64,000 nucleotides of DNA from Sulfobacillus thermosulfidooxidans (GTDB lineage: Bacteria > Bacillota > Sulfobacillia > Sulfobacillales > Sulfobacillaceae). The notes beneath the pieces are model-generated. The model saw only the letters and a program-made list of their open reading frames with translations, was not told the DNA's origin and searched no databases. Below, piece by piece: positions 41,722 to 47,866 of this stretch (position 1 is its first letter; each line of letters begins with the position of its first letter). The DNA lies in contig NZ_LGRO01000001.1 in assembly GCF_001280565.1 (NCBI RefSeq), positions 372,001 through 436,000 of the forward strand, read 5' to 3'. Made by a program: the position numbers and the translations under genes.

Positions 41722-41922
41722 ATGGGGAATACCACGAAAGACTATTACACCGTCGCCGATGTAGCAGAAATCCTCGCGATTAGTCCGGATACGGTCCGTC
41801 GCCTTTTGGCGCACGGCCAAATGCCCGGCGTGAAAATTTCCCCGCGGATTTGGCGTATTCCTGTTGCCGCCTTCCAAACCTGGTTAACCGATCGTGGCAA
41901 TCAGGAGGGAAAAGCTCTATGA
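41722..41922 (+). CDS. Small excisionase/MerR-like helix-turn-helix protein
   Basis: The product is 66 residues with AAAGGAGG before ATG 41722. YYTVADVAEILAISPDTVRR followed by ISPRIWRIPVAAFQTWL is the standard small DNA-binding fold used by excisionases and helix-turn-helix adaptors. It is the first gene of the parAB operon, and its stop overlaps the parA start (ATGA). The ParA here lacks an N-terminal DNA-binding domain, so this protein may be the operon autoregulator. Confidence 0.85.
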   Translation: MGNTTKDYYTVADVAEILAISPDTVRRLLAHGQMPGVKISPRIWRIPVAAFQTWLTDRGNQEGKAL

Positions 41923-42752
41923 CGTCCGTGCTTCAAACCATTCCAGAGACCCTCTCGATGGCGAGTGTCCCTCTACCGGAACATCCCATTGTCTGGAGTG
42001 CGTATGCTGTGAAAGGGGGCATTGGGAAAAGCACGCTGACGGCCAATATCGCTTTTACCTTACGCGTCCTGAATCCGATGTATCGCGTTTGCGTGGTCAA
42101 TGCCGACAGCACACGCGTGGTTCAACAATGTCTTGGCATTGGACGCGATCACCAAGAATTAACTCAAGATCTCTATGACGTATTACAAGGCGCTGTGGAG
42201 TGGCCAGCTGTTCGCATAGCGTCTCCTTATGGCGTGGATGTCATTCCGCTAGGGCCCAATCGACATGAAGCCGCACGGGAACTTAATCCTCAAGCGGTTC
42301 AAGCGCTTGTGCGCCGTTTACGCGAACATTATGATGTCATTTTGATCGATCTCCATCCAGGGGCTCAGGCTCTCATTCCTTGGCTCAACGTCATTCACAG
42401 TGTCTTATTACCCGTCACGTTAAATGCGAGCGGCGTTGAAGCGGTTCTGGACACCGTAGACGATTTGCAAACATGGCGTCGGCAAGGATTAGCAATTCCC
42501 GATATCGCAGGCGTCGTCATTAATAAATGGGACGGTCGCATGCGGATTGCGAAAAATTGGCTAGACCAATTAGAACGGGTTCTGCCTCATGAATGGATTT
42601 ACCCTTGGGCCATCCGTAATACCACAGCCATCGAACACGCTGAAACCGCATGGCAACCGATATTGCGAGAATCTTCGCCGAGTGCGCAAGAAGTCGGCCG
42701 AGCCCTCCAATTGATCACACAAAGGTGGTTGACCTATGCTTTCGCGCGATAA
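41919..42752 (+). CDS. parA: ParA partition ATPase
   Basis: The product is 277 residues from ATG 41919 after CAGGAGGG; the longer frame has no ribosome site. The deviant Walker A motif VKGGIGKST lies at about 31-39, followed by CVVNADSTR, the Walker B region VILIDLHPGA and LLPVTLNASG. ParA moves plasmid copies apart by cycling on the nucleoid under control of ParB bound at parS. There is no N-terminal helix-turn-helix. It overlaps parB by 17 bp. Confidence 0.93.
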   Translation: MTSVLQTIPETLSMASVPLPEHPIVWSAYAVKGGIGKSTLTANIAFTLRVLNPMYRVCVVNADSTRVVQQCLGIGRDHQELTQDLYDVLQGAVEWPAVRIASPYGVDVIPLGPNRHEAARELNPQAVQALVRRLREHYDVILIDLHPGAQALIPWLNVIHSVLLPVTLNASGVEAVLDTVDDLQTWRRQGLAIPDIAGVVINKWDGRMRIAKNWLDQLERVLPHEWIYPWAIRNTTAIEHAETAWQPILRESSPSAQEVGRALQLITQRWLTYAFAR

Positions 42753-44004
42753 TACCGTCAAAATGCTAAGAGAATTTGTTGAGTTGGTGCTCGATGACAC
42801 GACACGCCGCCAATTAGCCCAAACCTGGGCCATTACCGATGCGGACATTGCCACACCTCGGCGCTTTGCGACCACAGTGGTTACACACCACCGGGAGAAG
42901 TTATTACAAGCGATTGCCGAAAATGATCGGCTCGATACGCAGTGGAAGGCTTATCAACACGATGGGTTAGCAGGGGTCCAAGCCTTATGGGAGTCCGAAC
43001 GACGTCTGCGTCGTCAGATGGACAAGGGACCCTCTTCATCTCTACGATCCATCGCCGCACCGGTGTCCTCAACAGACAACGAATCGCCTACACCGCTGTC
43101 TGAAACGTCCGTAACGACGATAGAAGCGGTGAAAGCCGTGGCGGAGGCCCCTATTCAAGAAGTCCCCCTCGCGACGATAGTGGTGCGGGATGTTAATGTC
43201 CGATTAAATATTGAAGATGACCCGTCGTTTAGCGAATTAGTGACCAGTATTGAGCAGCATGGACTTCTTCAGCCCGTGGTAGTCACCCCTGATGGAGACA
43301 CGCCCGGACAGTGGCGACTCCTAGCGGGAGAACGACGTTATCGCGCCGTCAAGACGTTGGGGTGGACGACTATTTTAGCCCGGATTGTTGACGTGCCAGA
43401 AAGCGCATGGAAAATCGTGATGTTAACCGAAAATGTGCAGCGACAAGACCTGGCACCGTGGGAAGAAGCGTTAGGTTATCAACAACTGTTGGATAGCGGA
43501 TTGTCTTTGCGCCAATTGGCGAAACAACTCCATAAGTCTCCCGCTTATTTATCCGGTTTACTCAAATTAATCCGGAATCCCCTTATTCGCGAGGCGATGC
43601 GAGATCATCGCTTAGATACCCGGTCTCTGGCACTCGAACTTGCACCGCTCATTGATACAGACGGCCACGAGAAAATCCCCAATACTATCGAATCGGTTTT
43701 ACAATTTATTGTGACAAAACGCCCCACGGTGACCCAACTGCGCGAATACATTACGGAACGTCTCGCAGAGCCATCGCCTTTATCCTCAAAAACGTCCCCA
43801 CCGCAAAAGTCTCGGGCTGCACGGGGAAGCTTCCTGAAAAAAGAAGTGGCGCGATTGGAAGATATTCAGAAAACCCGCATTGCTCGTTTGTCCCCCGAAG
43901 AACTCGCGGTTTTAGCCGACTTGTATGATCGCACAGCGCGCGCCTTACGAGAACGGCTTGGAAATAGTTCGACACCGGACGAGTCAACCCCCGGTTCGTC
44001 GTGA
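42736..44004 (+). CDS. parB: ParB centromere-binding protein
   Basis: The product is 422 residues. A 140-residue N-terminal extension precedes the ParB core: IEQHGLLQPVVVTPDGDTPG, the CTP-binding box LLAGERRYRAVKTLGW near 196-210, and TENVQRQDLAPWEEALGYQQ. A helix-turn-helix follows (LSLRQLAKQLHKSPAYLSGL), then a Ser/Pro linker and a C-terminal dimerisation helix. It should bind the surrounding GTTCCGAYRTCGGAAC palindromes. The N-terminal extension may carry the ParA-contacting segment. Confidence 0.93.
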   Translation: MLSRDNTVKMLREFVELVLDDTTRRQLAQTWAITDADIATPRRFATTVVTHHREKLLQAIAENDRLDTQWKAYQHDGLAGVQALWESERRLRRQMDKGPSSSLRSIAAPVSSTDNESPTPLSETSVTTIEAVKAVAEAPIQEVPLATIVVRDVNVRLNIEDDPSFSELVTSIEQHGLLQPVVVTPDGDTPGQWRLLAGERRYRAVKTLGWTTILARIVDVPESAWKIVMLTENVQRQDLAPWEEALGYQQLLDSGLSLRQLAKQLHKSPAYLSGLLKLIRNPLIREAMRDHRLDTRSLALELAPLIDTDGHEKIPNTIESVLQFIVTKRPTVTQLREYITERLAEPSPLSSKTSPPQKSRAARGSFLKKEVARLEDIQKTRIARLSPEELAVLADLYDRTARALRERLGNSSTPDESTPGSS

Positions 44005-44315: not shown

Positions 44316-45482
44316 TTAAGCCCCACATTCTTCTGCAAGTTCCAACGTCACCAGATCAGGACGTTCCTGTGCGGCTTTGAGAATAAAGCTCCGCCACGTA
44401 GGGCTGCCCTCGCGAAAGACATGGGCGAATAACGATCCGAGAGCTTTTCGCGCCAACTCGGCTGCGTATACCTTTAAGCCAGACAATTCCGATAAACGTG
44501 GTGCTAATCTCTCCCATTGCGCCGTCGCTTCCGTCTGTGCCGCGTGTATGCGTTCTTCATCGGCTATTTCTTGAGCCTTTTGCGTTTGCAGATACGTCAA
44601 ATGTTCAGCATAATCTATGCGCCGTTGTCGAAGTTCATGCACCCAGCGTGGTGCCGCCCACTCTTCGCGCAGTGCGCGTTCCATCCATCCACCGGGAAAC
44701 TGAATCGCTTTCGGGGGTGCCGAGACCATCCATATTGCCACTTGCGCAACACGTGCCATGTCGTAGTGCCGTAACCAATGCCGGATGCGCTTGATGGAAA
44801 TTTGGTGTTTTTGAAGCATCGCAATTAAAAACAACTGGACATCGTGCTTTGAGGAGAATGTCCAAAGAGGCGCTCCAGGGATAGGTTGATCACTCTTACT
44901 GAAAGTCTTTTTTTCTGGGATCGGCTCGCGAATAGAGGTCTCAATGGTTGATGGATCAAGGTCTCGCGCCGATTCCCCCCGTGGACAGTCTGACGGGGAC
45001 CCTTCGGACACCTCGGGCCACATAAATACCGTGTCAGGCGTGGGGGTGGGTTCAGATGCCGGAGCCGATTCTGTTGTGTCGTGAACCCGCTCGACGGTGG
45101 TGATGGTCGGTTGCGGAACGCTCTTCAAAGGTTGCCAGGTTAAGACATACCGATTGGACGTGGTTCCGCCGTTGGCCCGTTTGCGGGAAATAATCCGCAA
45201 TAATCCTAACATTTCTAAACGTTGGAGGGAGCGACGCACGGTGCGGGTACTCATATGCGTTTCGCGCGCTAGTGTCTTTTCGGAAAATATTAATCCTAAA
45301 GGGAGTCGGGGTGTTTGAGTTTTGGCGCGCCAGAGAAAAAGATATAACTGTCGCGTGTTAGGAGGGAGTCCCCGTTCGACCAGATCGGTCTCAATCCGCT
45401 TTAATGTCGGAAGAACTCGGGAGTATGAATGAGGAGATGTGTGGGTATTCTGTTTCATGAGTGGTTTTGCCGTAATGGTCAT
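44316..45482 (-). CDS. Plasmid replication initiator-like winged-helix protein
   Basis: The product is 388 residues from ATG 45482; no ribosome site is seen there, nor at the ATG eight codons later. Residues 40-115 form a winged helix (SEKTLARETHMSTRTVRRSL, then MLGLLRIISRKRANGG) as in many plasmid Rep and DnaD-like proteins. An acidic Pro/Ser linker and a helical C-terminal half follow. Position next to parAB, divergent promoters and a pIP501-like antisense-controlled leader make it the likely initiator. The family itself is not one I can name. Confidence 0.72.
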   Translation of the reverse strand: MTITAKPLMKQNTHTSPHSYSRVLPTLKRIETDLVERGLPPNTRQLYLFLWRAKTQTPRLPLGLIFSEKTLARETHMSTRTVRRSLQRLEMLGLLRIISRKRANGGTTSNRYVLTWQPLKSVPQPTITTVERVHDTTESAPASEPTPTPDTVFMWPEVSEGSPSDCPRGESARDLDPSTIETSIREPIPEKKTFSKSDQPIPGAPLWTFSSKHDVQLFLIAMLQKHQISIKRIRHWLRHYDMARVAQVAIWMVSAPPKAIQFPGGWMERALREEWAAPRWVHELRQRRIDYAEHLTYLQTQKAQEIADEERIHAAQTEATAQWERLAPRLSELSGLKVYAAELARKALGSLFAHVFREGSPTWRSFILKAAQERPDLVTLELAEECGA

Positions 45483-45635
45483 GATTGGCTTGACAGGATG
45501 ATTATCCTCTTATACAATCATGAGAGTAAAGCGATGCCCGGTACTCAAAGGGGTTCTGGTAAAAATTTCCTTTGAGCACTGAGAAGTCGCGCCTATGGAT
45601 TAAACGGCAAATGAACCTCCTTTTACATGTTTTTG

Positions 45636-45676
45636 GGACACACACGACTGTTGGTTGCAGTTGTGTGTTTTGTTTT
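45636..45676 (+). terminator. Intrinsic terminator on the plus strand in the rep leader
   Basis: ACACACgACTG pairs with CAGTtGTGTGT over a 7-nt loop and is followed by TTTTGTTTT. It would stop plus-strand transcription running through the rep leader; read as RNA on the rep strand it is a leader hairpin without a U-run. Confidence 0.5.
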
Positions 45677-45694: not shown

Positions 45695-45727
45695 AAAAAA
45701 ATAACCTTGAGACACTCCCTCAAGGTT
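45695..45727 (-). terminator. Transcription attenuator in the rep leader
   Basis: On the minus strand AACCTTGAG pairs perfectly with CTCAAGGTT over a 7-nt loop and is followed by A and seven Ts. It lies about 210 bases before the rep start codon and downstream of the counter-transcribed RNA target. Premature termination here would limit rep expression. Confidence 0.82.
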
Positions 45728-45755
45728 TGAACGAGAAGACGCTTTACGCTATAAT
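45727..45755 (+). promoter_or_regulatory. Promoter of the counter-transcribed RNA
   Basis: TTGAAC and a perfect TATAAT are separated by 17 bases. It drives plus-strand transcription from about 45762, opposite to rep. Confidence 0.85.
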
Positions 45756-45761
45756 GTGAGC

Positions 45762-45831
45762 GTCGTCGTTCACCGCTGTCAGGAGTGGTGAACGGGCCTG
45801 AGGGGACTGCGCGGGAACGCGGTCCTTTTTT
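45762..45831 (+). ncRNA. Counter-transcribed antisense RNA controlling rep (about 70 nt)
   Basis: From the predicted start the transcript folds into CGTTCACC/GGTGAACG (45767-45794), then the terminator hairpin GGACtGCG/CGCgGTCC (45804-45825) with six Ts. It lies wholly inside the rep leader on the opposite strand, so the two RNAs are fully complementary. Its segment CCTGAGGGG (45797-45805) is the complement of the likely antiterminator arm. This matches the logic of RNAIII in pIP501 and related Gram-positive theta plasmids. Confidence 0.8.
45804..45831 (+). terminator. Terminator of the counter-transcribed RNA
   Basis: GGACtGCG and CGCgGTCC form an 8-bp stem (one T-G pair) around CGGGAA, followed by TTTTTT. 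Confidence 0.85.
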
Positions 45832-45850
45832 CTTTCCTCTTACCCAAGAT

Positions 45851-45885
45851 GTAGTGAACGCCATCCCTGAATGGGTATCCACTAC
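45851..45885 (-). other. 5' stem-loop of the rep mRNA leader
   Basis: GTAGTG and CACTAC close a hairpin with inner ATACCC/GGGAT pairing. It is the first structure after the predicted rep transcription start. Confidence 0.5.
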
Positions 45886-45897
45886 CCTCTGCGCACT

Positions 45898-45926
45898 ATG
45901 ATACAGGTTTTTGGACAGATTTCCAA
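45898..45926 (-). promoter_or_regulatory. Promoter of rep
   Basis: On the minus strand TTGGAA (45926-45921) and TATCAT (45903-45898) are 17 bases apart. The start near 45891 would give a leader of about 410 nt containing the antisense target and attenuator. Confidence 0.72.
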
Positions 45927-46059
45927 TAATCGGCACGATTTTTGGTTTGTTGATACCGGAGTTAACGGATTACCGTCCACCTTGCCCGCGAGCTATCTTG
46001 TCAGGACCCGGCCCATGTGAGAGAGTCTGGATAGTAGGACGTTGCGGGAGGAGGATGGC

Positions 46060-46923: not shown

Positions 46924-47162
46924 AGCTGGGGTCTTGCGATGAATAAGCACGCCTTCTCCCCAGGGCTGAAGCCCGAGGCTTCCAGCATCGCGTAATCTGG
47001 TGGCTGTTAGCCTATATTTTTTTCATCGATTTCGTGTGGATTCGCTTGACATGGCGATCCCGGGAAATAGGCTAATAGCCAGTCTTTCTGTCTTTCTGTC
47101 TTTCTGTCTTTCTGCTTTTCTGTCCGATGGGGTATAATGTAATCAGGAGGAGGAGATTTCTT
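46924..47162. other. Regulatory region of the AbrB/PIN pair with inverted and tandem repeats
   Basis: Small hairpins (CCCGGCTAAAGCTGGG at the end of the previous gene and GGGCTGAAGCCC near 46961) are followed by an inverted repeat, GGCTGTTAGCCTAT (47002-47015) against ATAGGCTAATAGCC (47067-47080). Between the arms lies TTGACA (47046-47051). A TATAAT sits at 47133-47138. Confidence 0.6.
47083..47122 (+). repeat. Tandem octamer repeat (TCTTTCTG)
   Basis: Four perfect copies of TCTTTCTG are followed by one imperfect copy (CTTTTCTG). They lie between TTGACA and TATAAT, immediately upstream of the toxin-antitoxin genes. Confidence 0.9.
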
Positions 47163-47435
47163 ATGGACAAATATCTACTCCAGTTGAGAGACCGCGGCGT
47201 GGTGACCTTACCTAAAACCGTGCGCCAGCACTATGGGCTGGGGCCCGATACGCCGCTCACATTGGTCGATTGGAATGGGGTTTTTATCTTGAGTCCCCGC
47301 ATTCCGGTCGTCACCGAGCTCGCTAAACAAATTGCGGCAGAACGCGCTGCAGCGGGTCTGTCAGTTCAAGACCTGTTAAGGGCCTGGACCCAAGAACGCT
47401 ATGGCCCGGATGCCCCGCAATCCGAGGACGCATGA
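47163..47435 (+). CDS. AbrB/SpoVT-like antitoxin
   Basis: The product is 90 residues from ATG 47163 after AGGAGGAGG; the longer frame crosses the promoter. LQLRDRGVVTLPKTVRQHYG followed by PLTLVDWNGVFILSP is the swapped-hairpin AbrB pattern that binds DNA. The C-terminal helix should hold the toxin. Its stop overlaps the PIN start by 4 bp (ATGA). The inverted repeat upstream is its likely operator. Confidence 0.87.
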   Translation: MDKYLLQLRDRGVVTLPKTVRQHYGLGPDTPLTLVDWNGVFILSPRIPVVTELAKQIAAERAAAGLSVQDLLRAWTQERYGPDAPQSEDA

Positions 47436-47866
47436 TTCCGCCTCTGCGCGTCTTTTTTGATGCTGATGTGATCATTGCGGGCAGCGCGTCCTCCGAGGGG
47501 GCATCGCATGCCTTGTCGCAAGTGGCGGAAATCGGGTTAATTGAGGGATGGACGGCGTTCCCAGTGCTAGACGAAGTGCGTCGTAATCTCCAACAAAAAA
47601 TTCCCCGGGCCTTGCCCATCTTTGAGACCTTATGGCCGCGTTGTTTACACATCGGTCCCGATCCCGATGATTCGGACCTGCAGAAGGTCATGGAGTATGC
47701 TCACGAGAAGGATCGTCACGTGGTGGCGGCGGCCTTACGGATTCCGACGCATTGGCTTGTGACCTTTAATGGGCGTCATTTCTACTCTCCTCCAGGACTC
47801 GTGATTTTACGTCCGGCTGAAGCGAACCAACGCCTTCGCACCCTGATTAGTGACCAGGCGCAATGA
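47432..47866 (+). CDS. PIN-domain ribonuclease toxin
   Basis: The product is 144 residues. RVFFDADVIIAGSASSEGAS gives the first acidic residues of a PIN fold; the conserved Glu follows in VLDEVRRNLQQ, and DPDDSDLQKVMEYA plus EKDRHVVAAAL supply the later ones. PIN toxins cut RNA and are held by the AbrB-type partner. Translation is coupled to the antitoxin by the ATGA overlap. Confidence 0.85.
   Translation: MIPPLRVFFDADVIIAGSASSEGASHALSQVAEIGLIEGWTAFPVLDEVRRNLQQKIPRALPIFETLWPRCLHIGPDPDDSDLQKVMEYAHEKDRHVVAAALRIPTHWLVTFNGRHFYSPPGLVILRPAEANQRLRTLISDQAQ

Follow-up and report, generated by a model that had tools for sequence, protein, structure and literature searches.

A rep leader in Sulfobacillus with probable antisense-controlled attenuation and a second predicted antisense RNA

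How does a replicon whose Rep belongs to an unfamiliar family control the making of that Rep? The question is raised by a stretch of 64,000 nucleotides from Sulfobacillus thermosulfidooxidans (hereafter the window; positions are counted from its first letter), in which the gene for a winged-helix replication initiator of 388 aa (rep, 44316..45482, minus strand) lies behind a leader of about 409 nt, beside the replicon's parA (41850-42752) and parB (42736-44004), both on the plus strand. Antisense-driven attenuation of rep has been described, in the available parts of two articles, for staphylococcal and for streptococcal and enterococcal plasmids (PMC5703833, PMC4981023). A sequence-only reading of the window had proposed a complete module of this kind, with the logic of pIP501/pAMbeta1 RNAIII. 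Our analysis makes it quite likely that the leader of the window and those of its family are antisense-controlled attenuation leaders which would set the copy number of a plasmid-type replicon, with a second antisense RNA, A2, as an added control. The attenuation principle is already known; what is new here is that a hairpin of the leader, H, is reassigned as the probable antiterminator, and that the second antisense RNA is conserved.

The Rep does belong to an unfamiliar family, as that reading held. The protein has an N-terminal winged helix and Pfam matches to HTH_11 and HTH_36, only the generic HTH_11 passing the Pfam/NCBIfam cut-off. Its likeness to replication initiation proteins in PHROG is weak (E 2.9e-12 for the best match), and a PDB sequence search gave nothing below E 0.09. 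A structural model made from the single sequence was poor (mean pLDDT 57.4) except for a good winged helix; its PDB structure matches were generic winged-helix regulators with E 0.005 at best and were discarded. The first ATG of rep (45482) is out of frame in genome G003, which has a 1-nt insertion, and the in-frame ATG shared by the two is at 45458, where rep possibly starts; on inspection neither ATG has a Shine-Dalgarno sequence nearby.

The Rep had matches in 11 of a set of 61 genomes, in 17 of the 42 genomes of the order by a profile search (weak matches included) and in 11 of the 154 genomes of the class at E 1e-10, each count including the window's own genome. No relatives were found by peptide pattern in GTDB contigs, in viral contigs, or in PLSDB with the window protein as query; relatives in PLSDB surfaced only when we used the Rep of pY0017. 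This plasmid and pL15, both from Sulfobacillus thermotolerans, carry a distant homologue, which BLASTP aligns at 28% identity along 114 aa in the winged-helix part (E 2e-8); its gene precedes hicB-parA-parB and is annotated in pL15 merely as a hypothetical protein. DNA searches gave no match of the leader in plasmids and none of the rep region in phages. We compared the leaders at 12 of the 15 Rep-family loci counted, namely ten genome leaders, that of the window among them, followed by those of pY0017 and pL15. Left out were G018, where rep is truncated, and the most distant Rep matches, G023 and G139, in which no leader module could be recognised. Weaker, HTH-only profile matches are outside these counts, and some of them were inspected as ORFs only.

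All the attenuation elements named in the sequence-only reading, a rep promoter, an opposing promoter with a hairpin RNA ending in its own terminator, and an attenuator followed by a T-run, are present where it had placed them. The rep promoter (TTGGAA-17-TATCAT, 45898..45926, minus strand; 9/12 consensus matches) predicts a rep RNA starting near 45891 on the same strand. It is opposed by the promoter of the first antisense RNA, A1 (TTGAAC-17-TATAAT, 45727..45755, plus strand; 10/12 consensus matches). A1 itself (45762..45834, plus strand, both ends predicted), which had been put at 70 nt, is predicted to be about 73 nt long and to fold into two hairpins (−37.0 kcal/mol for the 73 nt), the second of which together with a T-run forms its terminator (45800-45829, plus strand). 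The 5′ hairpin of A1 faces hairpin H of the rep leader (45768..45793, minus strand), its presumed target. Further downstream is the attenuator (45695..45727, minus strand), with a stem at 45703-45727 that is perfect over 9 bp (AACCTTGAG/CTCAAGGTT), or 10 bp if the next pair is counted, and a T-run reaching 45695; some 220 nt separate its end from rep. Six promoter-like sites lie in 2 kb of this region (1.0 ± 1.0 in shuffled sequence), along with four terminator-like sites (2.5 ± 1.6 in shuffled sequence). Rfam covariance models gave no match in the window at the gathering threshold, and none in six loci when E values as high as 1 were admitted. An imperfect dyad, CCAAAAATCGTGCCGATTATTGG (45923..45945), overlaps the −35 box of rep; it is a possible operator candidate, judged by its sequence, and is identical in G003, where the rep promoter region from about 45945 inward matches the window letter by letter while the DNA upstream differs.

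By inspection, the order of rep promoter, A1 terminator, A1 promoter and attenuator is seen in 11 of the 12 leaders, including those of the window, pY0017 and pL15. A strict automatic rule, requiring an antisense promoter, a terminator and a sense attenuator, was passed by 4/10 genome leaders, the window included, and by none of 400 dinucleotide shuffles of the ten leaders, nor by any of 84 pieces taken from elsewhere in the window; A1 and attenuator assignments beyond these four passes were made by inspection, and we think that the misses are due to a weaker terminator, a weaker promoter or a large loop. Wherever an A1 terminator was assigned (7/7 leaders), A1 is 66-79 nt long and has two main hairpins.

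Which part of the A1 target would act as the antiterminator? The sequence-only reading gave this role to the spacer CCCTCAGG (45797..45804, minus strand); on that view H would be only the loop of first contact for A1. The 9-mers it quoted are not complementary over their full length of nine, but a pairing of 8 bp with one G-U does exist between the spacer and CTTGAGGG (45717-45724), worth −15.8 kcal/mol without gaps. Since an 8-bp match is equalled by 6% of shuffled targets, this complementarity by itself is weak evidence. We then used a permutation test in which the pairing energy of H with the attenuator 5′ arm of its own leader was compared with that for the arms of other leaders, over seven clades and 5040 permutations. 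The cognate sum was −110.0 kcal/mol against a permuted mean of −75.9 kcal/mol, and the true assignment was the best of all 5040; H was chosen after the folds had been seen, although a leader's own pair and the exchanged pairs enter the test on equal terms. When H was moved by −8, −4 or +4 nt the true assignment ranked 1, 2 and 3 of 5040, and at +8 nt the signal was lost (3853). The attenuator 3′ arm, used as a negative control, gave no cognate signal (1196 of 5040), the whole A1 target gave a weaker one (20 and 122 of 5040 ungapped, 7 gapped), and the spacer ranked 54.

Because the cognate complementarity between H and the 5′ arm is conserved and is absent for the 3′ arm, the A1 target, as judged by this comparison of sequences, contains a competitor for the attenuator 5′ arm, mainly H. 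Folding of RNA that ends before the 3′ arm agrees in favouring H: in the window the 5′ arm was paired with H at a probability of 0.76 and with the spacer at about 0. In all 11 leaders the probability of pairing between the 5′ arm and the A1 target was 0.29-0.88, above that for shuffled targets, 0-16% of which did as well as the real one; for the window, the shuffled mean was 0.18 and 2/100 shuffles were as high as the 0.76 observed. The spacer is thus unlikely to be the antiterminator, despite its 8 bp and its rank of 54, as both the permutations and the folds before the attenuator is complete, the latter in all 11 leaders, favour H, and part of the spacer in G000 pairs with the 5′ leader. The main antiterminator is probably H.

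Once the attenuator is complete, the leaders behave differently. In the free RNA of 5/11 leaders it stayed unfolded (probability 0.00-0.01), and in the remaining ones it reached 0.61-0.99, so that by equilibrium folding it dominates even uncovered in four leaders (window, G030, G041, pL15) and does so in part in two more (G021b, pY0017). The earlier reading had called for folding with and without the antisense RNA; with the A1 target covered, the attenuator formed at 0.80-1.00 in 10/11 leaders, the exception being G026, which stayed at 0.03. In the window itself, however, covering changed little (0.97 free, 0.99 covered). As the attenuator of the window wins at equilibrium without A1, any switch there must be kinetic and take place during transcription, which equilibrium folding cannot display. 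The same values, with the terminator at 0.91-0.99 at equilibrium whether A1 is present or not (window, G030, G041, pL15), are what one would expect if the hairpin were a leaky constitutive terminator and A1 owed its effect chiefly to transcriptional interference, titration or RNase III cleavage. We consider this improbable, since it gives no reason why the A1 target should be complementary to its cognate 5′ arm and not to the 3′ arm. The comparison of leaders supports the attenuation logic of the sequence-only reading, with the layout kept in 11 leaders and the A1-target complementarity conserved; its choice of the spacer is less well supported (54 against 1 of 5040 for H).

The comparison with pIP501/pAMbeta1 fits in logic and fails in parts. 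In pIP501, RNAIII has 136 nt and attenuation takes place in a 329-bp rep leader (available part of PMC4981023); antisense attenuation in a long leader is what the Inc18 plasmids pIP501, pAMbeta1 and pSM19035 have in common with the mechanism predicted for the window. Unlike in these plasmids, A1 has about 73 nt, no XRE-type CopR gene was found among 8 ORFs scanned within 41.7-49.0 kb, the Rep has no Pfam match to PriCT_1 at E 0.1, and A2 is without a counterpart in the accessible part of the pIP501 description. In size A1 is nearer to RNAI of the staphylococcal plasmid pT181 (87 nt), which lies over the repC leader and follows the same logic, a pre-emptor pairing with the 5′ arm of the terminator as long as no antisense RNA occupies the leader (PMC5703833, as far as available). 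The hairpin of pT181, however, directly precedes the start codon, and the ribosome-binding site is predicted to lie within it according to the same partial source, whereas here it lies about 220 nt upstream; the Rep of the window has no Pfam match to Rep_trans, and a second predicted antisense RNA has a promoter and terminator of its own. Because the Rep type and the other tested features differ, the replicon is, by its sequence features, a member of neither the pT181 nor the Inc18 family, and the predicted A1 logic is that of both. RNAI of pSK41 resembles A1 in having about 83 nt, two stem-loops and a target far upstream of the rep start, but it hides the ribosome-binding site and does not attenuate (PMC5703833, available part). 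There is also a likeness with pY0017 and pL15, which have a homologous Rep, adjacent parA/parB and the same leader layout; they differ in being free circular conjugative plasmids, where the window has a chromosomal copy, and in the weak T-run of their A2 terminator. Across titles and abstract beginnings on Sulfobacillus antisense RNA, Sulfobacillus plasmid replication, pY0017 and dual antisense RNAs on rep mRNA, the module is unreported; the original description of pL15/pY0017 (Deane and Rawlings 2011) was outside this coverage and may mention it.

The module was not complete as first described, in that A2 had been overlooked. Its promoter (TTGACA-17-TACAAT, 45490..45518, plus strand) agrees with the consensus at 11/12 positions, more than any other promoter of the region, and the predicted RNA of about 150 nt (45525..45674, plus strand, both ends predicted) begins at rep, closes with a terminator hairpin (45640-45668, plus strand) and stops short of the attenuator. 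A TTGAC[AG]-17/18 promoter directed away from rep was found just before or at the rep start in all ten genome leaders, and in nine of them a terminator lies between it and the attenuator zone, the hairpin in G026 being assigned by eye. An automatic rule for A2 was passed by 10/12 leaders, against 17/3600 shuffles and 2/84 other pieces of the window; it fails in pY0017 and pL15 on their weak terminator T-run, and G026 probably passes by combining the A2 promoter with the A1 terminator, because that is the only antisense terminator detected there. The length predicted by folding is 117-196 nt in 9/10 genome leaders and 355 nt in G030. The G021a locus (G021:C320) keeps A2 without A1 and the attenuator, which it either lost or never had. 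Within the zone, G000 and G003 differ in a leader hairpin (45541..45579, minus strand) by two double changes, each of which preserves a base pair. Close to the 5′ end of A2 is the motif CGGGCAT (45534..45540, minus strand), which as CGGGYAT is present in 9/10 leaders (shuffled mean 0.20), 18-23 nt from the end of the A2 promoter. Combined with the A2 promoter as a search pattern, it hit 4/42 genomes of the order, all at known rep loci, and a reversed control pattern gave 1 match; this search of the 42 genomes gave no evidence of the module ahead of genes other than rep.

What would A2 do? The motif AAGGAGG/AAAGGAG (AAAGGAGG) lies inside the A2 zone in 8/10 leaders, with 0.14 expected from shuffling, and also in pY0017 and pL15. 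In the window the Shine-Dalgarno-like site is AAAAGGAGG (45616..45624, minus strand), about 135-140 nt upstream of rep. A leader peptide after AAAGGAGG was excluded, as no conserved ORF or start codon follows in the ten leaders. By sequence, the site therefore has the make-up of a STAB-SD, a Shine-Dalgarno-like site in a 5′ UTR without an ORF behind it, and both an anti-SD that fits it and an RNase J are encoded in the genome. The cry3A mRNA is stabilised by a site of this kind at which translation does not start (PMC4113751, PMC3997798, available parts); the likeness is that of a Shine-Dalgarno-like 5′ UTR sequence without translation initiation (PMC4113751, in part), and the difference is that the site here would be covered by an antisense RNA and that any stabilisation is a prediction from sequence. 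It is conceivable, and we propose it tentatively, that a 30S subunit at AAAGGAGG shields cut rep mRNA from 5′-3′ decay and that A2 prevents this shielding. Against this, AAAGGAGG could serve the translation of rep as a standby or long-range site, given that no Shine-Dalgarno sequence is seen near the rep start codon. An effect on translation would recall the RNAII/CopG system of pMV158, whose RNAII acts on translation from an antisense promoter at the rep start, as A2 might; RNAII has 48 nt, the Rep is different, and the accessible part of the source describes no attenuating first antisense RNA (PMC5703833).

A function of the A2 zone at the level of DNA is a serious rival, to which we would give clearly less than even chances, about as doubtful as the shielding of cut messages. 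The A2 promoter would drive a replication primer, or the stretch would be mainly DNA, as an origin or Rep-binding sites, with an incidental transcript. Pointing this way are the repeats TTTTGATAG, likely iterons or Rep-binding sites by their sequence, which lie in the A2 zone of pL15, G030 and pY0017, a 9-bp inverted repeat that flanks the A2 promoter in G000, and the conservation of CGGGYAT, dispensable for antisense pairing. A terminator hairpin at the lengths predicted for A2 would, on the other hand, be needless for a primer or an accidental transcript. CGGGCAT is conserved in itself, although antisense pairing requires no fixed sequence. There are five copies in pL15, three in G030 and one in pY0017, and each of the three leaders also has an inverted copy at −22; in pL15 the repeats span the leader from −269 to −22, before rep. 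A candidate palindromic operator inside the A2 promoter of G000 was dropped, being broken in G003.

Taken as antisense-controlled attenuation with an added control, the leader would work as follows, the production of A1 and A2, termination by A1 binding and the role of A2 being what we infer from the sequences. Transcription of rep mRNA would start near 45891, and H would pair with the attenuator 5′ arm, so that transcription continues into rep. The amount of A1, which is transcribed from the opposite strand, would follow copy number, and A1 would bind the leader over H; with H occupied, the attenuator would fold and transcription would end near 45695. A2 would start at the beginning of rep and cover the remainder of the leader downstream of the attenuator, and most likely would lower rep output from messages that have passed the attenuator, through translation or message stability. 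The most specific form, two independent antisense RNAs in series, conserved across the Sulfobacillus order, with A1 gating the attenuator and A2 masking a STAB-SD-like ribosome site so that full-length mRNA is left unprotected, is to us rather doubtful; if true, plasmid copy number would be controlled by RNA at two checkpoints across that order. With A2, the idea that a single message passes two RNA checkpoints becomes open to experiment. Since the predicted attenuation is associated with a different, winged-helix Rep family and its complementarity is kept while the sequence changes, these comparisons suggest that antisense attenuation of rep arose or spread more widely. The leaders of pY0017 and pL15 could also inform the design of stable vectors for biomining bacteria.

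The window lies within a contig of 3,195,503 bp (C1) of a 3.8-Mb genome. From 1 to about 48.9 kb it matches G003:C2 (20-41 kb was outside the search), a separate contig of 248,656 bp that has a Rep homologue, conjugation-type genes and parAB, and from 49.9 to 56.1 kb it matches a main contig of G011. Because the left part corresponds to a separate contig in one relative and the right part to main contigs of relatives, the replicon is probably a conjugative plasmid integrated in the chromosome, with a junction at about 48.9-49.9 kb; plasmid integration of this kind has been published for Sulfobacillus thermotolerans Kr1 (PMC6803676, available part). The neighbour upstream of rep is a divergent HNH-like ORF, and beside the replicon, at 47127-47866, is a MazE-like antitoxin gene paired with a PIN-domain gene, a probable toxin-antitoxin module by sequence.
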